A DNA stretch of 34,505 nt. Source: Thermoflexales bacterium. Its GTDB lineage: Bacteria; Chloroflexota; Anaerolineae; J036; Brachytrichaceae. Each line of letters opens with the position of its first letter. Position 1 is the first letter of the stretch. Below are positions 161 through 33,487 of this stretch, piece after piece. Location: contig JANWZM010000001.1 of assembly GCA_025054635.1 (NCBI GenBank), forward strand, positions 1 through 34,505, in the 5' to 3' direction. The position numbers and the translations under genes were made by a program. The notes beneath the pieces were generated by a model. It searched no databases and was not told the origin of the DNA. It saw nothing but the letters and a program-made list of their open reading frames with translations.

Positions 161-1785
161 GCGTGCTCCAGGCAGCGCTGATTGCGCTGATGTATGCCTT
201 TGCGCGGTCTGCGTTCAACGCTGGGCTTGGGGGCTATGTGCTCTCGCAACCGCTCGTGGCTGGCACGCTTGCAGGTGCGCTGCTCGGCGATCCGCTGCGC
301 GGGGCGCAAATTGGCGGTGCGTTCAACTTGGGCACACTTGCCCTGAGCCAGCTTCGCGTGCGCTTAGGACCAGACATCGCGCTAGTGGGTTACGTTGGCG
401 TGCCGCTGATGCTGTTGAGCGGGCTGCGCCCTGATGAGGAGGCGACCGCAGCGTTGTTCGGCGCGCTGCTCGTCTTCGGCACCGTCCTCAGCTTCGCGCG
501 CGGTCTGTTCAACACGCTGATCGCGCACTGGGTGGATTACTTCGCCGACCGGGGGCAAATTGAGGCCGTCGCCATTGTCAGCGTTGTGCCGACCCAGATC
601 TGGACGGTGCTCACCGCGTTCATCCCCGCATTCGGGATGCTGTTGTTTGATGCGCCTACGCTTGGCGGGATCGCTACCTCCATCCCGGCGTGGCTGCAAG
701 CCGCGCTGCGCCTGACGCAAACCTTGCTTGCAGCGCTCGGCATTGCCGCGAGCCTGCGACTGGTCGCGCAAGGGAGCGGGTTCGCATACTTTCTCCTCGG
801 TTGGGCGCTTGCGCCCTTTACTGGGCTTGTCCAAGCAACGCTGCTCGGCGTCAGCGCGGCGACGATCCATGCCTACCTAACGCGGCGGACGCTCAGCGCA
901 GGTCGGGATACGCTGGTGACGGACGTGCTGCCCTCTGAACAAAGCGAGGTTTACACCGCTCGGCGGCAGCTCGCCTGGGCTGAAGCACAAATGGCGTTCC
1001 TGCTGTGGATGTTCTTCCACGACGCGGGAGCAAACTTCGAGCGGCGGCAGAATCTGGGCTTCGCTGCAGCGCTGGCGCCTGTGGGGCGCGCGCTGTGCGA
1101 GACGCTAGAAGAGCGGATCGCGCTGCTTCGACGCACACTCACGCTGTTTGCAACGGAGTGGACGTTTGGTGCAGCGCTGGTCGGCGCCGTTGTTGCGCTG
1201 GAGGAGCGCCGCGCCAACGGCGAGGCGATCAACGACGCTGAGCTGGTCGGAGCAAAGCTAAGCGGCATGGCTGCCCTGAACGCGCTCGGCACGGCAATTA
1301 TGACCAACGGGCTGGCCTCGCTGTTGGTTGCGATCGGCGTGGACTTAGCGAACGCTGGCTCGCTGCTCGGCGTGGCGTTGTTTGTCGTCGTGCAGTCGCT
1401 TGCCGTGATCGGGGTTGGGTTTGCCAGCTTCAACCTCGGCTTCGGCTACGTGCGCCGCTTTGCGGAGCGCGCTCGGCTGAACAACTGGTTGCGCCCTGCC
1501 TTGTTCGGCGCGACTCGTCTAGGGGCATTTACGCTCGGCTTGCTTGTCCCGGTATTTGTGCCGCTGAGCTTGCCCGAGGGTGCAGCGTTGACCATTGGCT
1601 CAGTCGTTTGGTCGCCCCAGACGCGCGTGCTGGACGCCACCTTGCCGAACGGCATCCCCCTGTTGCTCACGCTGAGCTTGTGGGTGCTGCTGCGGCGGCG
1701 CTGGCAGCCGCTCACCCTATTTGGGGTGTGCCTCATCGCGGCTGTGTTCGGCGGGGCAGTGGCAGAGCTGCTCGGTTGGTTCTAG
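157..1785 (+). CDS. Fused PTS mannose/sorbose-family EIIC-EIID-like membrane protein
   Basis: N-half QPLVAGTLAGALLGDPLRGAQIGG resembles ManY/EIIC; C-half NFERRQNLGF...ALEERRANGEAINDAE resembles ManZ/EIID. ATGA overlap with the upstream CDS. Confidence 0.82.
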   Translation: MSVLQAALIALMYAFARSAFNAGLGGYVLSQPLVAGTLAGALLGDPLRGAQIGGAFNLGTLALSQLRVRLGPDIALVGYVGVPLMLLSGLRPDEEATAALFGALLVFGTVLSFARGLFNTLIAHWVDYFADRGQIEAVAIVSVVPTQIWTVLTAFIPAFGMLLFDAPTLGGIATSIPAWLQAALRLTQTLLAALGIAASLRLVAQGSGFAYFLLGWALAPFTGLVQATLLGVSAATIHAYLTRRTLSAGRDTLVTDVLPSEQSEVYTARRQLAWAEAQMAFLLWMFFHDAGANFERRQNLGFAAALAPVGRALCETLEERIALLRRTLTLFATEWTFGAALVGAVVALEERRANGEAINDAELVGAKLSGMAALNALGTAIMTNGLASLLVAIGVDLANAGSLLGVALFVVVQSLAVIGVGFASFNLGFGYVRRFAERARLNNWLRPALFGATRLGAFTLGLLVPVFVPLSLPEGAALTIGSVVWSPQTRVLDATLPNGIPLLLTLSLWVLLRRRWQPLTLFGVCLIAAVFGGAVAELLGWF

Positions 1786-1868
1786 CAAGCTACCCCCTTA
1801 CCTTCTCCCCAAGGCTTGCGAGCGCATGCGACGCGGTTAGCGGACTCTAAGGCAGAGCCCGTGATCTT

Positions 1869-1874
1869 TATAAT
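1869..1874 (+). promoter_or_regulatory. Candidate -10 box (TATAAT) upstream of the PfpI gene
   Basis: TATAAT at 1869-1874; AGGAGG Shine-Dalgarno just before ATG 1923. No clear -35. Confidence 0.4.
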
Positions 1875-1922
1875 GCCGCATACCCGAAATTTGTCACCCC
1901 CTTAGGACCCAGGAGGACAAGC

Positions 1923-2522
1923 ATGGCGAAGAAGATTCTCTTTCTGGTTGGCGACTACGTCGAGGACTACGAGGTGATGGTGCCGTTTCAGGCGCTGGCT
2001 GCGCTCGGCTACGAAGTCCATGCAGCCTGCCCCGACAAGGCGGCCGGCGACTTTGTGCGCACCGCCGTTCACGACTTTGAGGGCGATCAGACCTACAGCG
2101 AGAAGCGCGGTCACAATTTCACCCTCAACAAGACCTTCAGCGAGATCAACGAGGCTGACTACGACGCCCTGGTGATCCCTGGTGGGCGCGCGCCGGAGTA
2201 CATCCGCCTCAACAAACGCGTGCTGGAGATCACCCGCCATTTCTTCGAGACAAACAAGCCTGTTGCGGCAATTTGTCATGGGCTGCAAGTGCTCGCCGCG
2301 GCTGGTGTGCTCAAAGGGCGGCACTGCACAGCCTACCCTGCCGTCGGGCCAGACCTCGAGCTCAACGGCGCGGTTTACTGCGACATGGCGTCGCACGAGG
2401 CAATGACCGACGGCAACCTGGTCAGCGCTCCAGCGTGGCCTGCCCATCCGCAGTGGCTGAGCCAGTTCCTGAAGGTGCTCGGCGCACGTATCGAAATCGA
2501 GCCTGAGCCAGCCCTGGCGTAA
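1923..2522 (+). CDS. DJ-1/PfpI family protein
   Basis: [33 protein letters not shown] and nucleophile elbow AICHG; strong RBS AGGAGG. Confidence 0.92.
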
Positions 2523-2635
2523 GTTGTCATCTTAAAGCGCGGGCAGCCTAGTACACCGCCTCCCGCCGTGCGTGCAGGGTGCACGTTGTGCTCACGCTGG
2601 GCTGCGTGTGCTTCGTTTGAGTGTTGGAGGTGTGT

Positions 2636-3178
2636 GTGAACAAATTTCGTCTTGCCTTTGTGGCAACTCTCGGTTTCGCAGCAGCAGGATTGCTGAGCTC
2701 GAGCTGTGCGCAGCAGCCCCGCGTTGCTGAGCGGACGCCGACTGAGACGCGCGTGGTGTCCCCTTCTGCTGAGGAAGCAGGGCGCTACCTCATCCTGATG
2801 GGTGGGTGCAACGATTGCCATACGCTCGGTTGGGAGCAGTCCGGTGGGAAGATGCCTGAAAGCGAGTGGCTGACGGGCAGCCCAGTTGGCTACCGCGGGC
2901 CGTGGGGCACGACCTACGCGACAAACCTGCGCTTGTATGTGCAGGCGGTCAGCGAGGACGAGTGGGTGCGCATGTTCCGCGAACGCAATGAGCGTCCCCC
3001 CATGCCGTGGGTGAACTACCGCACCATCCACGAGAGCGACCTGCGGGCAATTTACCGCTTCATCCGCAGCCTCGGTCCAGCCGGCAAGCCAGAGCCAGAC
3101 TACGTGCCCCCGGACAAGGAGCCGATGACCCCCTACCTCTCCTTCGTGCCGATCATGCCTGCGAACGGCGGGCAGTGA
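2636..3178 (+). CDS. c-type cytochrome lipoprotein (single CXXCH haem motif)
   Basis: Lipobox LSSSC after a hydrophobic signal; CNDCH haem motif. The ORF track starts at GTG 2621, but GGAGG at 2626-2630 supports GTG 2636. Confidence 0.82.
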   Translation: MNKFRLAFVATLGFAAAGLLSSSCAQQPRVAERTPTETRVVSPSAEEAGRYLILMGGCNDCHTLGWEQSGGKMPESEWLTGSPVGYRGPWGTTYATNLRLYVQAVSEDEWVRMFRERNERPPMPWVNYRTIHESDLRAIYRFIRSLGPAGKPEPDYVPPDKEPMTPYLSFVPIMPANGGQ

Positions 3179-3214
3179 ACGCACTGGCTGCAAGCAAGCA
3201 GCGCGCTACGCGAT

Positions 3215-3252
3215 CTCACCCCCATTCCCTCTCCAAAGGGGATGGGGGTGAG
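3215..3252. repeat. REP-like hairpin / candidate bidirectional terminator between convergent genes
   Basis: CTCACCCCCATTCCC - 8 nt - GGGGATGGGGGTGAG; 15-bp arms with one T/G mismatch. Confidence 0.65.
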
Positions 3253-3314
3253 AGCTGAAACCCTATCCGTAACCTGGTTTTCGTCGAGGGGGAAGTCTCT
3301 TGGGTAGAGACCCA

Positions 3315-4991
3315 TCATCCATTCTGGTTGGCGCGCGCCCAAGCGTCCTTGAGGGTGACTGAACGGTTAAACACCAGGTGTCCCGGGCGCGAGTCGGGAT
3401 CGACAACGAAATACCCTAGCCGTTCGAATTGGTAGTGCTTGCCTACGGGCGAATCAGCCAAGCACGGCTCGGCAAACCCGGTGACTACTTCGAGCGAGCG
3501 TGGGTTCAGGTAATCGAGAAAGGTTTGCCCCTCTTCTGTGTTGTCGGGGTCAGGGCGCGTGAACAGGTGGTCGTAGAGCCGAGCTTCGATTGGGATTGCG
3601 TGAGCTGCGCTAACCCAGTGGATGGTTGCCTTGACCTTGCGCCCGTCGGGCGCGTTGCCACCACGCGTCTGCGGGTCGTAAGTACAGCGCAATTCGACGA
3701 TGTTCCCTTGGGCATCTTTAACAACGTCCACGCAGCGGATGAAGTACCCGTAGCGCAGGCGCACCTCGCGCCCTGGGGCTAAGCGGTAAAACTTCGGCGG
3801 CGGGTTCTCCATGAAGTCGTCCTGCTCGATATAGAGCACGCGGCTGAATGGCACAAGGCGAGTGCCTGCGCTGGGGTCTTCGGGGTTGTTTATCGCCTCA
3901 AGGTGCTCAACTTTGTCCTCGGGGTAATTCTCCAGCACCACGCGCAGCGGGCGCAACACAGCCATCACGCGCGGCGCAGTGCGGTTGAGCTCGTCGCGCA
4001 GGCTGTGCTCGAGCATGGCGATGTCAACCATGCTATCGGCTTTGGCAACACCGATGCGCGCGCAAAAGTCGCGGATGGCGCTCGGCGTGTAACCGCGCCG
4101 GCGCAAGCCGCGCAAAGTCGGCATCCGCGGGTCGTCCCACCCTGAGACGTAGCCTTCACGCACAAGCTGGATCAGCTTGCGCTTGCTCAGGACTGTGTAG
4201 CTGAGGTTGAGGCGTGCGAACTCGATCTGGCGTGGGGCGAAGATCTCTAGCTCGCGCAAGAACCACTCGTAAAGCGGGCGGTGGTCTTCGTACTCCAGCG
4301 AGCACAGTGAGTGGGTGATCCCCTCGATGCTGTCGCTCTGACCGTGGGCGAAGTCGTAGGTCGGGTAGATGCACCACTTCGTCCCTGTGCGGTGATGCGG
4401 GGCGCGGATGATCCGGTACATGACTGGGTCACGCAAGTTGATGTTGCCCGACGCCATGTCGATCTTCGCGCGCAGTGTGCGGCTGCCCTCTGGGAACTCG
4501 CCAGCACGCATTCGGGCAAACAAGTCCAGGTTTTCCTCGACGCTGCGGTTGCGCCACGGGCTTTCGCGCCCGGGGGTAGTCAGCGTGCCGCGATACTCGC
4601 GCAGCTCATCTGGCGAAAGGTCGCACACATACGCTTTGCCCTTCTTGATCAGCTTAACTGCGAACTCGTAGAGCTGCTCGAAATAATCGCTGGCGAAGAA
4701 AAGCCCATCCCACTGGTAACCCAACCAACGCACGTCTTCGATGATGGCGTCAACGTATTCCTGCTCCTCTTTAAGCGGGTTGGTATCGTCGAAGCGCAAG
4801 TTGCACGTGCCACCGAACTCTCTGGCGATCTCAAAGTCGATGTGCATTGCCTTGGCATGACCAATGTGCAAGTAGCCGTTGGGTTCAGGCGGAAAGCGCG
4901 TGCGAACGTAGGTAAATCGCCCAGAGGCTAGGTCTTCACGGACTGCGGTGCGAATAAAGTCGGACTTGACAGCAGTCGTCTCAGCGCTCAT
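3315..4991 (-). CDS. glnS: Glutaminyl-tRNA synthetase
   Basis: [29 protein letters not shown] and VLSKRK (KMSKS-like) motifs; full length. Confidence 0.96.
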
Positions 4992-5210
4992 CGGGAGCTA
5001 AGAGTATACCGTCTGGGAGATCTCTAAGAAGAGGGAATGGCTAAAAACGCGAAGTCTTGACAAAGACGACGCCCTGAAGACCTGCGCTGCGCCAGACGCG
5101 CCTGATTTCGGCAACCTGCAAACAACCACACCCTAGCCGCTACCGCCGAGTGTAGTGCGCCGTGCGTCGCTGCATTACGCGCTGTGCCTTGCTTCGAGCG
5201 CAGGCAACCG

Positions 5211-6434
5211 CTACAGCCGCTCGCTGAGCACAGCAGGCAGTGCTGCGTAGAAGTTCGTCGCTTGAACCACGTCGTCTAACCGCACCTGGTCGAGCACAGT
5301 GTGAGCGTGGCGCTCGTCGCCCGGTCCAAACCCAATGCAGGGGATGCCTGCAATGCCAGCCCAATACGTGCCGTTGGTTGAGAAGTCCCACTTGCCAGAG
5401 CTTGCTCGCTGCCCGAACACCAGCTCAGTTGTGTCGAGCGCAGCTCGAACCAGCGGATGTGACTCCTCCAGCGCCCAAGCAGGGTAGTACTTGTCAACCT
5501 CCAGCACAAACCCATTCCAGCTCGGCTCTGCATACTTGAGCATGCTCAACGCGACTTCAGCAGGGTCAACGCCACTGCGATCAATGATCGCCTGCACCTC
5601 AGCAAGCGCGCTTTCGACGGTATCGCCGAAGGTCAACCGGCGGTCGATGTAGAGTGTCGCCTGGTCGGGCACAGCGTTGATGCTGGCGGTGCTGACGCGC
5701 ATGTCGCTGACGGTGATCGTCCCTTTGCCCAAGAACGCATCCGTGCGCAGCGTGGCATCCAGGTCGCGGATGCCAGCGATGATCGGCAGAAGCTTGTAGA
5801 TAGCGTTGTCGCCTAGCCAGTTGCTTGCGGCGTGCGCGCTGCGCCCTTTAGCGACAACCTGCATCTCGACACGTCCCTTGTGTCCGCGATAGACTTGCAT
5901 TCGGGTTGGCTCGCCGATCACAACCACGTCGGGGCGCACTTTGGGGTCATGCTCGACAAACACGCGAGGAGCAATGCCGTCGCACCATTCCTCGATATTG
6001 CCAAAGTAGTAAGCCGTCCAGCCTTCCAGCAGTCCCAACTCGCGGGCGAGGGCGATGCCATAGACCATGCCAGGCGTGCTGTTTTTCTCATCGCATGCAC
6101 CGCGCGCGTAGAGAACACCATCTTCCACCTTGCCCTCAAACGGATCCCAGCCCCACTGCGAGCGGTCACCGATGCCAACTGTGTCAATGTGCGAGTCGAA
6201 CACGATCACGCGCGAACCGTTGCCAACCCGCCCGAGGAGGTTGCCCTGGACATCCCAGCGCACCTCGTCGTAGCCTAGCCGGCACATTTCCTCCCCGATG
6301 CGCTCGCCGACTGCTTTGATCTGCGAATCCATGCTGGGGATTGCACAAATCTCGCGCATCAGGCGAGTGATGTCGTCTCGATGCGCCTCCACGCGAGCGC
6401 GCAAGGCTTGAACGTGTTGAGGAGTAATCATCAC
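5211..6434 (-). CDS. M20 family metallopeptidase/hydrolase (YgeY-like)
   Basis: DSHIDTVGIGD, ARGACDEK, NIEEWCDG and VIGEPT metal-ligand blocks. Confidence 0.85.
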   Translation of the reverse strand: MMITPQHVQALRARVEAHRDDITRLMREICAIPSMDSQIKAVGERIGEEMCRLGYDEVRWDVQGNLLGRVGNGSRVIVFDSHIDTVGIGDRSQWGWDPFEGKVEDGVLYARGACDEKNSTPGMVYGIALARELGLLEGWTAYYFGNIEEWCDGIAPRVFVEHDPKVRPDVVVIGEPTRMQVYRGHKGRVEMQVVAKGRSAHAASNWLGDNAIYKLLPIIAGIRDLDATLRTDAFLGKGTITVSDMRVSTASINAVPDQATLYIDRRLTFGDTVESALAEVQAIIDRSGVDPAEVALSMLKYAEPSWNGFVLEVDKYYPAWALEESHPLVRAALDTTELVFGQRASSGKWDFSTNGTYWAGIAGIPCIGFGPGDERHAHTVLDQVRLDDVVQATNFYAALPAVLSERL

Positions 6435-6587
6435 AGCGCTTCATTCTAACGAGGTGGCAAGCAGAGAGCATGGAGGGAGTGTCTAGGCTCGAATACATGG
6501 TGCGTGGCATGTCGGTTTGCCCTCGCCCCTGCGTACCTCTACTCAAGAGAGGAAGGATACTTCACGCGCTGAACTACACTTACGCTC

Positions 6588-6669
6588 GAAGTGAGGGAGT
6601 GACGACTCTTGCAGGGCAAAACGTCTCGCTCTGCTCTCACTTCCGCCCCCTTTCCTGCAGGAGCGGGGG
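6588..6669. repeat. Nested inverted repeats / REP-like element upstream of rluD
   Basis: GAAGTGAG (6588-6595) pairs with CTCACTTC (6636-6643); CCCCCtttCCTGCAGGagcGGGGG at 6646-6669. Confidence 0.45.
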
Positions 6670-6696
6670 AGGGTGCGAGGCACTTCCCCGGGTTGT

Positions 6697-7629
6697 ATGC
6701 CAACTCGAATCCTCACCCTGACCACGAACGACAGGCTTGACCGCGCGCTCGCTGCTGTGCTGCCTGAGCTCAGCCGATCCGCCATACAGCGCTTGATTGA
6801 CCAAGGGCGCGTGCGCGTCAACGGCGCTCCGCGCCAAGCCTCCGCGCGCGTTCTCCCAGGCGACCAGGTGTGGATTGACCTGCCGGATCCTGAGCCTGAT
6901 TTGCCTCAGCCGGAGCGGCTTCCCCTCGCTGTTCTCTACGAGGACGCTTGTGTCGCTGTAATAGACAAGCCTGCCGGGATGGCGACCCATCCAGCCGCAG
7001 GCAAGCGCAGCGGCACGGTTGTCAACGCCTTGCTTGCGCGTTTCCCCCAGCTTGCCGCAGTTGGCGATCCCTGGCGTCCTGGGATCGTTCACCGCCTAGA
7101 CAAGGAGACCAGCGGCGTGCTCATTGTCGCCAAGACCGTCGAAGCCTTGTCCGCCTTGCAAGGGCAGTTCAAAGCACGCACAGTTCACAAAACCTATCTT
7201 GCGCTCTGTGTCGGTTGGGTTCAACCTGAAAGTGGTGTCATCCGCAGACCAATTGCACGTGACCCGCGCCACCGCCAGCGCATGGCTGTCATTGCTGGGG
7301 GGCGCGCGGCAGCGACGCAGTTCGGGGTGATTGAGACGTACGCCCTCGACGATAGTCAGTATCGCTACACCCTTTTGCGCGCCCACCCCCTCACTGGGCG
7401 CACCCATCAGATCCGCGTGCATCTAGCCGCGCTGGGCTTTCCCATCGTTGGGGATGCCACCTACGGTTCTCGAAAAGACCTCCTCACGCGCCGCTTTGCG
7501 CCTAGGCATCTGCTTCACGCAGCAGCGATTGAGTTTGTCTCTCCCGCAACAGGGGAAACTGTTCGAGTCGAAGCGCCGCTGCCAGCGGACATGCACGCCG
7601 CGCTCGAGCAGCTCAGGCGTGCAAAGTAG
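6697..7629 (+). CDS. rluD: RluA/RluD family pseudouridine synthase
   Basis: N-terminal S4-like domain, catalytic GIVHRLDKETSG, HPLTGRTHQIRVHLA. ATG 6697 preferred over GTG 6673. Confidence 0.94.
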   Translation: MPTRILTLTTNDRLDRALAAVLPELSRSAIQRLIDQGRVRVNGAPRQASARVLPGDQVWIDLPDPEPDLPQPERLPLAVLYEDACVAVIDKPAGMATHPAAGKRSGTVVNALLARFPQLAAVGDPWRPGIVHRLDKETSGVLIVAKTVEALSALQGQFKARTVHKTYLALCVGWVQPESGVIRRPIARDPRHRQRMAVIAGGRAAATQFGVIETYALDDSQYRYTLLRAHPLTGRTHQIRVHLAALGFPIVGDATYGSRKDLLTRRFAPRHLLHAAAIEFVSPATGETVRVEAPLPADMHAALEQLRRAK

Positions 7630-7681: not shown

Positions 7682-8485
7682 TTGCAAGCTCGGCGTAAAC
7701 TGAGGGTCACAGTCAATTTTGTCAGTCGTACTTCTCGCTTGGAGCAAGCGCCCGTAGCATACAAGGCATCTGTGCCGAACCTATCGCGCCTATCGTCGGC
7801 GTCGGTCGCCGTATTGGTGCTGCTCAAAGAAATCTTTCTGCTCTCGCTAGAGGGCAGACGGGTTACGCTGATCATCCTGGCAAAACAGTTGGGAGTAACT
7901 CCCCCAGCGATCTCGCGCCGAGCGCAGAAGTTGGTGCGACGGGGCTTGCTGGCGCGCGATGGTGCGTGTGGGTTGCGCTTGACTGAGACTGGGCGAAGGC
8001 TTGCGCTATACGCACTGCGCAAACAGGAAATCTTTGAAGCCTTCTTGGTTTGTACGCTGGGTTACCGTTGGGAGGAGCTAGGTAACGCTGGCGAGAGCGC
8101 GCTGCGCATGGACGACGAGCTTATCGAGCGGATGTACGCGCGCTCAGGTCGCCCAGCGCGCTGTCCGCATGGGCTGCCGATCCCAACTAGGGAGGGTCAG
8201 TTTTCCCTCGGCAACACGGTAGCCCTAGCTGTGCTTTCCCCTGGGCAGGCTGCACGAGTTAGCCACGTGCTGACGCGCGAAGGCACGCTGCTGAGCTATC
8301 TCGCCGAGCTTGGTTTGCGCCCAGGCAACCATGTCACTGTAGTCGAGCACATCCCTTTCGGTGACTTGCTCAAGGTGCGTGTCAATCGGGACGCTGCTGA
8401 TCAAGAACACATCATCAGTGCGGCGCTTGCGCAAATCGTCTTCGCAGAGGTCAATCCAGCGCAGCCTAGTGACACTGCCCGCTGA
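7682..8485 (+). CDS. DtxR/MntR-like regulator with C-terminal FeoA/SH3-like domain and degenerate metal site
   Basis: wHTH LAKQLGVTPPAISRRAQKLVRRGLL...LTETGRRLALYALRKQEIFE; PHGLPIP motif. The track's 7682 start is TTG; GTG 7772 is an alternative. Confidence 0.82.
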   Translation: MQARRKLRVTVNFVSRTSRLEQAPVAYKASVPNLSRLSSASVAVLVLLKEIFLLSLEGRRVTLIILAKQLGVTPPAISRRAQKLVRRGLLARDGACGLRLTETGRRLALYALRKQEIFEAFLVCTLGYRWEELGNAGESALRMDDELIERMYARSGRPARCPHGLPIPTREGQFSLGNTVALAVLSPGQAARVSHVLTREGTLLSYLAELGLRPGNHVTVVEHIPFGDLLKVRVNRDAADQEHIISAALAQIVFAEVNPAQPSDTAR

Positions 8486-28743: not shown

Positions 28744-30147
28744 TTATCCCCCGCTTGGGAACAACCCCAGCAAGCGCGCAAGGCTCGCAGTAACAAACGT
28801 CACGAGGAAGGCTGTGCCCAGTGTGATGACAACGCTGACTGCAGCCCAGAGGCGCGAGCGGGTCTCCTTGTAGATAGTGATGATCGTTGTTGCACAAGGG
28901 TTGTGCAGCAGCGAGAACAGCATCAGGTTCACCGCTGTCAGCAGCGTCCAGCCGTGTTGACCGACAAGCAGGGCGCGGATCGCCTCGGCGCCCTCGGGCG
29001 CCTCGATCATCCGACCAGCACCTGTGTAGATCATCATCATCGTCGGCACGACGATTTCATTGGCAGGGATGGCGATGATGTAAGCGAGAATGATCGTGCC
29101 GTCCAGCCCGAACAACCGCCCGAATCCGTCCAGCGCTTGGGCAATCGCGGATGCCAGGCTGGACTCGCCGAACGGGATGTTGCCGAGCACCCAGATCACC
29201 GCACCGGCAGGTGCAGCTGTGCTCATCGCGCGCAGCAACACAAAGATCGTCCGGTCAATCAGTGAGGTGTACAGAATCCGCAAGATGTTTGGGCGGCGGT
29301 AGGGGGGCAACTCCAGGGTGAAAGCGGAAGCTTCCCCGCGCAGCAGCGTCCGCGACAGCAGCCAGGACATCAGCAGGGTAAAGCCGACGCCGATCAGGAC
29401 AACCGCAACTACCGCGCTGGCAGCGATGAGCGCTGTTGCAGGCCCGCTGAACCCCGCTGCGACAAACACCGTCGCCAGCATGATCAAGGTGGGGAAGCGC
29501 CCGTTGCAGGGCACGAAGTTGTTCGTCAAGATGGCGATCAGTCGCTCGCGCGGCGAGTCAATGATTCGCGTAGCGACCACGCCTGCAGCGTTGCAGCCCA
29601 GCCCCATCGTCATCGTCAGCGCTTGCTTGCCATGCGCCCCAGCTCGCTTGAACAGCCAGTCCAGGTTGAACGCGACGCGCGGTAAGTAGCCCAAATCCTC
29701 TAGGATGGTGAACACCGGGAAGAAGATCGCCATCGGCGGGAACATCACCGAGACGACCCAAGCCAGCCCGAGGTACACCCCGTCCCAGACAAAGCCGGTC
29801 AGCCACCATGGCGCACCGACCTGCTCGAATAAGCTACGCCCCAGGTCACCCAAACCAAACAACAGATTTGCCAGTGCTTCAGAGAGGACGTTCGCTCCCG
29901 AGACTGTCAGCCAGACGACTACTGCGAGCAGCACGAGCATGACGAGCAGACCAGTCACCGGCCCGGTAACGATCTGATCAATCCACTGATCGAGGTCGCG
30001 TCCGCGCTGTCCTCTTGTGTGAACGGCACGACGGGCGATTCGGCTGGCTTCAGCGTAGAGCGTTTGCGCGATCGCGTCACGGAAGTCGGACGGCAGCGCG
30101 CGGCGCAACGCCTCTGCGCGGCTCAGCACGTGCTCAGGCGATGACAT
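28744..30147 (-). CDS. feoB: FeoB membrane (permease) portion, separate gene
   Basis: Gate/core motifs LGCNAAGVVATRIIDSPRERLIAILTNNFVPCNGRFP. ATG 30147 preceded by a GGAGGG Shine-Dalgarno. Confidence 0.92.
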   Translation of the reverse strand: MSSPEHVLSRAEALRRALPSDFRDAIAQTLYAEASRIARRAVHTRGQRGRDLDQWIDQIVTGPVTGLLVMLVLLAVVVWLTVSGANVLSEALANLLFGLGDLGRSLFEQVGAPWWLTGFVWDGVYLGLAWVVSVMFPPMAIFFPVFTILEDLGYLPRVAFNLDWLFKRAGAHGKQALTMTMGLGCNAAGVVATRIIDSPRERLIAILTNNFVPCNGRFPTLIMLATVFVAAGFSGPATALIAASAVVAVVLIGVGFTLLMSWLLSRTLLRGEASAFTLELPPYRRPNILRILYTSLIDRTIFVLLRAMSTAAPAGAVIWVLGNIPFGESSLASAIAQALDGFGRLFGLDGTIILAYIIAIPANEIVVPTMMMIYTGAGRMIEAPEGAEAIRALLVGQHGWTLLTAVNLMLFSLLHNPCATTIITIYKETRSRLWAAVSVVITLGTAFLVTFVTASLARLLGLFPSGG

Positions 30148-30163
30148 CTCGCACCCTCCCTCT

Positions 30164-30997
30164 CTACTGTTGTCCAACGACGGCGATTTGGCGACTCAAG
30201 CGCGACTCGGGCACGTGCTGGCGGCGGGCGATCTCTGCCAGTTCGCCGCTGAGCAGCGCTTGTTGCAGGCGCGCATCGCCATCAAGTAGGCGCAGCGCGA
30301 CCCACCGCGCGTTGGGCAACCCTGGCGCCAACGACTCAATCAGGGGGACAAGCTCGTCCAGCGCGGCTTGGAGCTGCGGGGTGTAGCACACGCGGCGAGG
30401 CTGAGTTTGCAGACGCCCGGCGATCACATCAGCAACGCTGCTGAGCAGCGCCATCACCCCCTCACCGGTGCGCGCGACGATCGGCACGGCTGGCACACCT
30501 AAGTCGCAGCTGAGCGCGCGCGTGTCCACCTCAATTCCCTTGCGCCGCGCTTCGTCGATTAGATTGACCGCGACGACCGCCTTGTCGGTGATCTCCAAAA
30601 TTTGCAAGATCAGGTTCAGGTTGCGTTCGAGCGCGGTCGCATCAGCGACGATGACCGTGCAGTCGGGCTGCCCAAACAGTAGAAAATTGCGCGCCACTTC
30701 CTCGTCCTGCGAGGTGGACAGCAGCGAGTAGGTGCCTGGCAGGTCAACCAGCTTGTAGCGAACGCCGTTGAACTGATACCCGCCCTCTGCTCGGCGGACG
30801 GTCTTGCCAGGCCAGTTGCCGGTGTGCTGCTTCAGTCCTGTCAGCGCGTTGAACAGCGTTGACTTGCCCGTGTTCGGGTTGCCCGCCAACGCGATAACGT
30901 GGTCGAAGCGATCCATCTTGATGCCCATGCGCTCCAGTTGGGCGAAGGCAGGGCAGGTCGCGCACGATTCGCTGGGGACAAATGCAGCGTTCTTCAT
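30164..30997 (-). CDS. feoB: FeoB G-domain (GTPase) portion, separate gene with N-terminal Cys motif
   Basis: ALAGNPNTGKSTLFNALTGLKQHTGNWPGKTV, DLPGTYSL, NLIDEA; N-terminal SCATCPAF; TAG stop before the permease gene. Confidence 0.94.
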   Translation of the reverse strand: MKNAAFVPSESCATCPAFAQLERMGIKMDRFDHVIALAGNPNTGKSTLFNALTGLKQHTGNWPGKTVRRAEGGYQFNGVRYKLVDLPGTYSLLSTSQDEEVARNFLLFGQPDCTVIVADATALERNLNLILQILEITDKAVVAVNLIDEARRKGIEVDTRALSCDLGVPAVPIVARTGEGVMALLSSVADVIAGRLQTQPRRVCYTPQLQAALDELVPLIESLAPGLPNARWVALRLLDGDARLQQALLSGELAEIARRQHVPESRLSRQIAVVGQQ

Positions 30998-30999
30998 CG

Positions 31000-32010
31000 T
31001 CAGTAATGCGCAATCGGTCGGACAAGGATGTGGTCAGCCTGCTCCTTGCGCAGAGCGATCAGCGTGCCTCGCACGCGATAAGCGCGCGGCTCACCGACGA
31101 ACGTCTGCATCTCTGGTCGGACGGTTGCGCCAACTGTCAGCCCGAGGTCGAGCAGCCGTCGGCGCGTCAGTCCTTGCAGTGCCGGGTCAATCTGGACAAC
31201 TTCACCCTCTCGGTGCAGGGGCAACTTCGAGAGCGGCAAGGCGTCGCCGTCGAAAACTCGCTCTGTCGGCAGCAGTGGGCTAACGCTGACGTTTGCGGCA
31301 ATGGCAGGTGCAAGACGATACTCGTTCTCGCCATCGCTGATGGTCAGACGCTGCGGGGTTCGCTCCAGCACGCGCACTGTCTGACCGAGCTTCAAGCCTG
31401 CCGCAGCGATCTGCTGGTAGGCAACTGCAGGCTCATCCTCGATGTGCACGATCCGCCCTGGCTCGTCCGTGGGCCAGTCGGTGAGCGGGCAAGACGCACG
31501 GCTTGGCATCTCGCCAGCGCGATCAGGGATCGGATCGCCGTGGGGATCTTGCTGAGGGTATCCCAGATTTGCTTCGAGTGCCTCAACCTCCGCCTCACTC
31601 AAGGTGTGCTCGCGACGGTGTGCCTCGGCGTGAATTTGTGCCAGCGGCATCCTCGCCTCATCTGCAAGGTAGCGCTCCCACAGCCGATGGGCGCGCAGCA
31701 CGTTCAACGCCCAGCGCTCACCAGCAGGCGTCAAGTGAAGCTGCTCCGCACGCGACTGGAGCAAGCCTTGCGCTTCCATCCGCTCAATCAGCCGAACGGT
31801 CTGCGCCCGAGACAGCCCCAGTGCCCCACTCAACGACTCTGGCGAAGCGTGCCGCCCCTGGTGCTCGCGGTTGAGCAAGTGCTTGAGCGCGTCCTCGACT
31901 TGCTCGCGCTCTTGCTGTGCTCGCCAGGCACGATAGCTCGCTGCAAGCCTGCTCCTTAATGCGAGGGCGAGCAACCCTGCGAGTAGCACAACAGGGATCA
32001 ACCACTCCAT
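31000..32010 (-). CDS. Membrane-anchored DtxR-family regulator with two C-terminal FeoA-like domains
   Basis: N-terminal TM (MEWLIPVVLLAGLLALAL), wHTH (ESLSGALGLSRAQTVRLIERMEAQGLL), metal site VLRAHRLWERYL...HAEAHRREH, PHGDPIP, FeoA RRRLLDLGLTVGATV; 2 nt from the feoB G-domain. Confidence 0.88.
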   Translation of the reverse strand: MEWLIPVVLLAGLLALALRSRLAASYRAWRAQQEREQVEDALKHLLNREHQGRHASPESLSGALGLSRAQTVRLIERMEAQGLLQSRAEQLHLTPAGERWALNVLRAHRLWERYLADEARMPLAQIHAEAHRREHTLSEAEVEALEANLGYPQQDPHGDPIPDRAGEMPSRASCPLTDWPTDEPGRIVHIEDEPAVAYQQIAAAGLKLGQTVRVLERTPQRLTISDGENEYRLAPAIAANVSVSPLLPTERVFDGDALPLSKLPLHREGEVVQIDPALQGLTRRRLLDLGLTVGATVRPEMQTFVGEPRAYRVRGTLIALRKEQADHILVRPIAHY

Positions 32011-32032
32011 AATTTAGGCTTGCCTAAATTAT
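32009..32032. promoter_or_regulatory. Perfect palindromic operator candidate (DtxR/IdeR-like box) over the feo operon start
   Basis: ATAATTTAGGC-TT-GCCTAAATTAT, 11-bp perfect arms; overlaps minus-strand -10 TATAAT (32033-32028) and the ATG (32010-32008). Confidence 0.82.
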
Positions 32033-32140
32033 AGCGCAGCGGCACTGCGTGCACCAAGCTGAGCTGCGGACAAAGCGCAACAAGACCTGATGGCGCAGGG
32101 TCTCTCAGTCATTTGTCTGTGCGGCGTATGATGTTCACGC

Positions 32141-33487
32141 ATGGCATCTGTCGTAGAGACTGCCCCTTATGCCGACCAGCGCGCCACAGGCGTTTACCAC
32201 CAAGTCGATGTTCCCCGCAACGTCGTTGCTTTCACTGCTGACATGGCAGCGTTCATGGTGGGCACATACTTCATTCCCGCCACCACTGTTCTGGTCGGCT
32301 TAGCTGCGCAGCTTACTGATGACAAGACGCTGATTGGCGCTGTGGGGATGGCTTGGCCTGTCTCGTGGTTTCTGCCGCAGCTCATTGCAGCACAAATCGT
32401 TCGGGGGAGACGGTGGCAGAAGCCCTACCTGGTTGTTCCGAGCCTGCTAGGGCGGAACGCGTTTCTGCTGATCGCGCTTTGGCTTCTGATTACCCAAGCC
32501 CAGGCGCCTGTGCTGACGATTTGGGTGTTGATCGGGGGCATTGCGCTGTTCAACCTATGCGATGCACTGGCTGGGGTTGCCTGGTTCGACATGCTCAGTC
32601 GGGCGCTCTCGCCGCGGGTGCGGGCGCGCGCTGTGTCTGTTGGCCAATTCGTGGGCGCTGTGCTTGGCGTTGGCGCTGGCATTATCGTTGAGCGTGTGCT
32701 CTCGCCACAAGGGTTGCCCTTCCCGCAAAACTACGCCCTCATCTTCGGCTGCACGTGGGTGTGCATGATGCTATCGCTGGGCTTGATCGCGCTGGTGCGC
32801 GAAACCCCGATGGACGAGACAGAAAGCGCCCACGCGCAGCGCCAAGGTTTTGTCCGTAGTCTGTTTGAGGCGTTGCGCACAGATCGCCTGTTCGTGCGAG
32901 TGCTTGTGGTGCGCTTGTTGACTGGGGTTGAGCTGATGGCAGCCTCGTTCTACTTGGTCTTCGCTCGCGATCAGCTCGGGTTAGGGAATTCAGCCACAGG
33001 CATTTTCAACATGGCGCTCATCATCGGGGGGATTGTAGGGATCGCGCTGTTTGGCTGGGTCGCTGATCGCTTCACGGCGCTCGGCGTGCTTCGCACAGCC
33101 GCGTTCATGCAGTTGCTTGCCCCATGCATTGCGTTCGCGTTCGTCTTCGTCAGCGCGGATGGGATATGGCAACTTGTCGGGTTGATCGCGTTCGTGATCG
33201 TGTTTGCCTTGCGCGGTGCGATAGAGCACTCGTTAGTGATAGGCGTCGTCGGCTACCTGCTTGACGCGGCTGCGGAGCGCCACCGAGCGATGTATGTCGG
33301 CGCGCTGAACACCCTTGGCGGCATTGTCGCGCTCTCTCCGCTGCTTGGCGGCGTCTGGCTGGATGGGCTTTCAGCAACTGGGCAGGGTGAGCTAGGGTAC
33401 GCCGTGATGTTTGGCGGCGTTGCGCTGATTGCTGGCACGGGGGCGTGGCTCAGCCTGAAGCTGCCGCGCGTTTCCAGACAACCTTGA
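32141..33487 (+). CDS. MFS transporter
   Basis: Twelve-TM-like hydrophobic pattern; GIVGIALFGWVADRFTALGVL loop. Confidence 0.85.
   Translation: MASVVETAPYADQRATGVYHQVDVPRNVVAFTADMAAFMVGTYFIPATTVLVGLAAQLTDDKTLIGAVGMAWPVSWFLPQLIAAQIVRGRRWQKPYLVVPSLLGRNAFLLIALWLLITQAQAPVLTIWVLIGGIALFNLCDALAGVAWFDMLSRALSPRVRARAVSVGQFVGAVLGVGAGIIVERVLSPQGLPFPQNYALIFGCTWVCMMLSLGLIALVRETPMDETESAHAQRQGFVRSLFEALRTDRLFVRVLVVRLLTGVELMAASFYLVFARDQLGLGNSATGIFNMALIIGGIVGIALFGWVADRFTALGVLRTAAFMQLLAPCIAFAFVFVSADGIWQLVGLIAFVIVFALRGAIEHSLVIGVVGYLLDAAAERHRAMYVGALNTLGGIVALSPLLGGVWLDGLSATGQGELGYAVMFGGVALIAGTGAWLSLKLPRVSRQP

Follow-up and report, generated by a model that had tools for sequence, protein, structure and literature searches.

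Background

PgMntR of Porphyromonas gingivalis combines a DtxR-type winged helix with a dimerisation domain and two FeoA domains, has its gene in the FB2 (Mn) transporter operon and binds manganese as well as iron (PMC4805248). FeoA has been shown to bind and stabilise the GTP-bound FeoB (PMC8980893), and in Klebsiella FeoC was described to bind the G domain of FeoB (Hung 2012, as cited in PMC8980893). The control of FeoB after its synthesis and the role of FeoA are open questions in the field. Apart from PgMntR, nothing on membrane-anchored DtxR proteins, DtxR-Nramp fusions or related architectures was found in the open-licence PMC papers.

Domain architecture of the TM-DtxR-SH3-FeoA protein

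The reading frame at 31000..32010 (-) of the window, by which the whole analysed stretch of 34,505 nucleotides is meant, encodes a predicted protein of 336 aa (hereafter the TM protein) that was delimited by ORF and Pfam analysis, alignment to solved structures and AlphaFold2. It starts with an ATG at 32010, which is preceded by an in-frame TAA two codons upstream, and full-length orthologues were detected in relatives by protein search. The domain E-values and the at least 500 relatives rule out a chance ORF or artefact. The long antisense ORF at 30982-31959 (+) was ascribed to the high GC content.

The protein belongs to the DtxR/MntR superfamily by descent, as indicated by its Fe_dep_repr_C domain (PF02742), its metal ligands and the fold of its winged helix and SH3 domain. 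The DtxR-type winged helix-turn-helix (residues 35-93; 31732..31908 (-)), which carries D40 on its helix 1, was recognised by alignment, conservation and AlphaFold2/Foldseek; Pfam Fe_dep_repress (PF01325) gave no match to this winged helix. Solved DtxR/MntR proteins align to the chain (8pvt, E 9.7e-24; 5zr4, E 3e-22), and the AlphaFold2 model, which was built on 56 relatives, has a mean pLDDT of 94.6 and matches MntR, SloR, IdeR and DtxR in Foldseek (5zr6, E 2.8e-16). The winged helix noted in a preliminary description of the locus is thus present despite the missing Pfam match.

The metal-binding and dimerisation domain (residues 94-163; 31522..31731 (-)) is defined by conservation and by Fe_dep_repr_C (E 1.7e-23). 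Pfam FeoA (PF04023) matches two stretches of the protein, the best being residues 259-332 with a whole-protein E of 2.8e-24, and a FeoA search of the whole genome placed each domain alone above the curated cut-off (31015-31236 and 31276-31488). With 85.4 bits against a cut-off of 23 and a gene located beside those of FeoB-N and FeoB-C, the protein qualifies as a member of the FeoA family. The two FeoA-like domains described beforehand stand insofar as both score as FeoA; the first one, however (residues 184-245; 31276..31461 (-); FeoA search, AlphaFold2 and conservation), which carries the family-specific motif H189-x-E191-D192-E193, is the usual third, SH3-like domain of DtxR proteins, so that only the second, true FeoA domain (residues 259-332; 31015..31236 (-)) is extra.

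An N-terminal transmembrane helix (residues 4-22; 31945..32001 (-)) is predicted by hydropathy and AlphaFold2. The Kyte-Doolittle maximum over 19 residues reaches 1.94, and values of at least 1.6 ahead of the winged helix were found in 75 of 79 relatives (from the best 80 of at least 502); the other four comprise two with 1.58, one cut by a contig end and one with an uncertain start. In the AlphaFold2 model residues 4-50 form a single unbroken helix, in which the anchor continues into the D40-carrying helix 1 of the winged helix. These results agree with the hydrophobic helix initially reported, and by hydropathy alone, namely by a conserved hydrophobic helix of approximately 19 residues, the prediction of an integral membrane protein is supported. 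GTG and TTG codons inside the hydrophobic segment would fit a soluble twin-FeoA DtxR with its real start downstream of this stretch. Such an artefact is nevertheless highly improbable, considering the in-frame TAA right before the ATG, the conservation of the helix in the relatives, its fusion with helix 1 in the model, and a -10-like box and an operator (see below) that are placed for the ATG at 32010 and for the starts in congeners. A true start behind the hydrophobic segment, which the preliminary description had named as an outcome speaking against its reading, was therefore not borne out.

Metal site

The ligand residues of the dimerisation domain are H108, E112, H127, H131, E134, H135, D155 and H157. 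The motifs RAHRLWERY and HAEAHRREH were both found, and the metal site was rightly considered intact, with its full set of ligands. Conservation was counted over 81 TM sequences: H108, E112, H127, H135, D155 and H157 as well as E191, D192 and E193 are invariant, and E134 and H189 are each kept in 79. The residues H189, E191, D192 and E193 are unconserved in soluble DtxR partners, from which the H-x-E-D-E motif is missing. Position 40 is occupied by D in 72 sequences and by N in eight (D40 conservation 90%), and position 131 varies between His, Glu, Gln and Asp; save these two, the metal ligands are 97-100% conserved in the TM family.

The designation as an iron sensor is not established, as the equivalents of Met10 and Cys102 characterising the iron-specific DtxR/IdeR-type site are replaced by Asp40 and His131 in the TM protein. 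The combination of D40 with H, E, Q or D at position 131 argues against a DtxR-type iron-only site, and judged by these residues the site resembles those of MntR and PgMntR more closely than the iron site of DtxR with its Met10 and Cys102. Since PgMntR binds both metals, the metal of the TM sensor is left as Mn or Fe.

Distribution, split FeoB and transporter fusions

When one genome from each species was scanned under profile guidance, at least 502 relatives were detected, of which the best 80, mostly from metagenome-assembled genomes, were kept. These 80 belong mainly to the Chloroflexota and Acidobacteriota, and some are labelled Planctomycetota, Gemmatimonadota, Methylomirabilota and others. 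An architecture unique to the window genome was consequently rejected, given that at least 500 candidate loci were detected across several phyla. While it appears to be undescribed in the open-licence PMC papers, as initially suggested, this number of loci makes it widespread rather than unique. One locus labelled Acidimicrobiia (L123) clusters closely with one from the Acidobacteriota by both its TM and its soluble protein and may represent a misbinned contig or a transfer.

In the window feoB is split into a stand-alone G domain, FeoB-N (30164..30997 (-); FeoB_N, E 5.4e-59; FeoB_Cyto, E 7.7e-07), and a membrane permease half, FeoB-C, with the Pfam domains Gate and FeoB_C (28744..30177 (-), ATG 30147 being the likelier start). 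The feoB-N ATG at 30997 follows the TM gene after a gap of 2 nt, confirming the spacing given in the preliminary description. The general gene order is that of an often present soluble DtxR, the TM-DtxR-FeoA2 protein, FeoB-N and FeoB-C. Among the best 80 of at least 502 loci, FeoB-N is located directly 3' of the TM gene in all 76 intact ones, and nearly all loci encode a split FeoB; an unsplit FeoB accompanies the TM module at L036, L039, L120 and L122. The proposed coupling of the FeoA fusion with FeoB is supported by this constant order and by the fusion of the same module to Nramp.

The FeoB-N of the window carries an N-terminal CxxC motif (C-x-x-C-P; here CATC, 30953..30964 (-)) ahead of its G domain. 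The motif is conserved in 74 of 76 relatives (L073-L151) and is possibly a metal, Fe-S or redox site.

Two congeners encode the FeoB halves at separate loci (L034 5146-5994 and L184 2361-3947; L035 7113-7937 and L185 2205-3599), FeoB-N staying with the TM protein in both and the permease half lying elsewhere. A loss of the permease from these genomes was rejected, as it is present in both with 80-82% identity. An aldehyde dehydrogenase gene follows FeoB-N in the two congeners. The window genome additionally encodes an ordinary stand-alone FeoA and an unsplit FeoB (L186 1696-4008, G000:C232), suggesting that the split system may serve a different metal or condition. The FeoB on C232 has no N-terminal CxxC.

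In three genomes the TM-DtxR-FeoA-FeoA module and a complete Nramp transporter form one polypeptide of 757-777 aa: L047 (G057; 4714-6987 (-); Nramp, E 1.6e-124) in addition to L190 (G117; 1521-3854 (+)) and L191 (G136; 854-3148 (+)). A fourth candidate (G152:C254) turned out to be a soluble DtxR beside a separate Nramp gene. Phylogenetically, the TM proteins group with the Nramp fusions in a single clade (support 100/99), within which the fusions are nested. Its sister group (86/81) consists of the soluble twin-FeoA DtxRs of L050, L058 and L059, which have DtxR-like helices; the one in L058 adjoins a FeoB gene. This topology would suggest a path from a soluble DtxR via a soluble twin-FeoA DtxR to a membrane-anchored protein with relaxed DNA helix and finally to the transporter fusion, an order that is provisional, since the tree was midpoint-rooted and its sister node is moderately supported.

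Recognition helix, operator and soluble DtxR proteins

Residues 67-77 (31780..31812 (-)), which align to residues 37-47 of IdeR/DtxR, form a degenerate recognition helix as judged by conservation. Soluble DtxR proteins encoded near 59 of the best 80 (of at least 502) TM loci served as paired control. The pairwise identity of the TM proteins is 0.29 in the recognition helix versus 0.70 in the dimerisation domain (ratio 0.41, bootstrap 0.39-0.44), compared with 0.63 versus 0.67 in the soluble proteins of the 59 loci (ratio 0.94). Out of 114 windows of 11 residues, the recognition helix is the most variable one in the TM proteins and ranks 79th in the soluble ones, where APASVTGM is the usual sequence. 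The Pfam DtxR DNA-binding domain (PF01325) was recognised in 39 of 39 soluble partners but in only 3 of 56 TM relatives; a match to Fe_dep_repress (1.6e-7) persists in L043, a relative that branches early. The TM protein thus has neither the recognisable PF01325 domain nor the constrained recognition helix of a functional DtxR repressor, and is apparently relieved of DNA reading, with relaxed constraint on this helix. A variable recognition helix is no proof of lost DNA binding, however; the winged-helix fold is retained and predicted with high confidence.

The palindrome ATAATTTAGGC-TT-GCCTAAATTAT (32009..32032, without strand), which touches the start codon, is a predicted DtxR-type operator according to its sequence and motif comparison. 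Its core TTTAGG-N4-CCTAAA (32013-32028) is perfect in the window genome, and a TATAAT -10-like hexamer (32028..32033 (-)), approximately 17 nt before the ATG, overlaps the operator, an arrangement that recurs at the congener loci L034 and L035. A sigma-70 scan detected no match to the full promoter consensus. In 78 loci (from the best 80 of at least 502) the core was found with up to one mismatch in 24, versus 0.6% of shuffles, and with up to two mismatches in 35, versus approximately 5% expected. Elsewhere in the genome the operator has a single near-match (L188 2048-2063, G000:C272), located beyond an ORF end near a contig end. The divergent MFS gene at 32141-33487 (+) was dismissed as a member of the system, since this neighbour is unconserved in L034 and L035.

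At loci with TTTAGG-N4-CCTAAA the soluble recognition helices are 0.72 identical and the TM helices 0.27. A second operator class, TTTTGA-N4-TCAAAA, was detected upstream of the TM gene at divergently arranged loci of Acidobacteriota-like genomes (L123, L126, L129, L137, L140, L150), where the soluble DtxR is divergent from the TM gene and has the helix APGTATTM. As the soluble helix changes with the operator and the TM helix is unconstrained, it is the soluble DtxR that tracks the operator, and the palindrome at 32009-32032 is probably bound by a soluble DtxR. Within the genus to which the window belongs, the operon lacks a soluble DtxR, and contig C238 of the window genome encodes one with the helix TPASVTGM. 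Going solely by the PASVTGM helix, this protein is probably the repressor of the operon in this genome. A further, divergent soluble DtxR-type regulator is encoded in the window at 7682-8485 (+), has the recognition helix VTPPAISRR and adjoins a pseudouridine synthase-like gene.

Proposed function and alternative explanations

The preliminary description considered that the polypeptide could repress its operon. In such a model a membrane-tethered DtxR, with a topology like that of ToxR/CadC, would when metal-loaded bind its own operator and also act as FeoA for FeoB. Such a dual role would suit the retained winged-helix fold, the perfect palindrome touching the start codon and the operon in the window, which has no soluble DtxR; moreover, PgMntR, a soluble twin-FeoA relative, binds the promoter of its own operon (PMC4805248). 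However, no part of the sensor is less conserved than the recognition helix, which is unconstrained although the operator is conserved, the PF01325 match is gone in 53 of 56 relatives, most relatives (among the best 80 of at least 502) are accompanied by a separate soluble DtxR whose helix is conserved, and the window genome itself encodes one with the same PASVTGM helix. Repression by the TM protein therefore seems unlikely.

Alternatively, the anchor and FeoA could bring the stand-alone G domain to the separate permease half, the DtxR part being a remnant with little sensing. A tether of this kind would be useful given the FeoB halves that are split in nearly all loci (best 80 of at least 502) and even lie apart in two congeners. 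Yet conservation is highest at the metal ligands, which a mere remnant would not keep, and the TM module is also found with an unsplit FeoB (four loci) and in fusions to Nramp, a transporter devoid of a G domain, so that a pure scaffold is a decidedly poor prospect.

We rather favour, as fairly probable, that the TM protein is a membrane-anchored metal sensor which arose from a twin-FeoA DtxR/MntR repressor and is now a regulatory subunit of the split FeoB. Evident from the sequences are a predicted membrane helix, conserved metal ligands, a second FeoA domain, an obligate operon linkage to FeoB and a relaxed recognition helix. Cytosolic Fe(II) or Mn(II) would bind among D40 of helix 1, H108, E112, H127, H131, E134 and H135 of the dimerisation domain and H189, E191, D192 and E193 of the SH3 domain. 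Since the transmembrane helix runs unbroken into helix 1, the anchor would become locked or tilted once metal is bound. The FeoA domain would then be repositioned on the FeoB G domain with the shared helix as a lever, perhaps along with the winged helix, much as with FeoC. The sensor would thereby set how FeoA2 meets FeoB-N according to the cytosolic metal, and hence the GTP turnover of FeoB and transport, plentiful metal most likely shutting import. Transcription of the operon would be left to a separate soluble DtxR on TTTAGG-N4-CCTAAA, here probably the C238 protein.

There is about an even chance that these proteins constitute a widespread undescribed class of membrane-anchored, DtxR-derived sensors without DNA binding, whose metal-ligand helix crosses the membrane and which gate transporters directly, FeoB as a FeoA-bearing subunit acting with a CxxC G domain and Nramp as a built-in domain. 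From a FeoA naturally fused to a sensor whose ligand chemistry is known, one would predict gating of FeoB, and of one Nramp, by cytosolic metal, for which TM-DtxR-FeoA/FeoB would offer a compact test system. It would also clearly exemplify how a transcription factor has apparently turned into a transporter subunit while a paralogue in the same operon keeps DNA binding.

Comparison with known systems

PgMntR shares with the TM protein the winged helix, the dimerisation domain, two FeoA domains and the location in a transporter operon. All of its 12 listed metal positions have counterparts with matching spacing, D19 corresponding to D40 and positions 85, 89, 104, 108, 111, 112, 132, 134, 166, 169 and 170 each to the position shifted by +23; 11 are identical, and Cys108 is His131 in the TM protein. 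PgMntR is soluble and promoter-binding, whereas the TM protein is equipped with a membrane helix and its recognition helix is degenerate. The IdeR/DtxR and MntR/DR2539 repressors resemble it in fold and metal-ligand framework; the TM protein adds the membrane helix and a second FeoA domain and has neither a conserved recognition helix nor Met10/Cys102.

As in FeoA and the FeoA-FeoB fusions, e.g. of Bacteroides fragilis (PMC8980893), the second domain is a true FeoA whose gene accompanies that of FeoB, but here it is joined to a metal sensor and anchor instead of to FeoB, which is split. FeoC is small and soluble and has a winged-helix fold. The resemblance of the TM protein to it would be one of role, not of any sequence relationship shown: that of a Feo-operon winged helix which probably acts on FeoB rather than on DNA.
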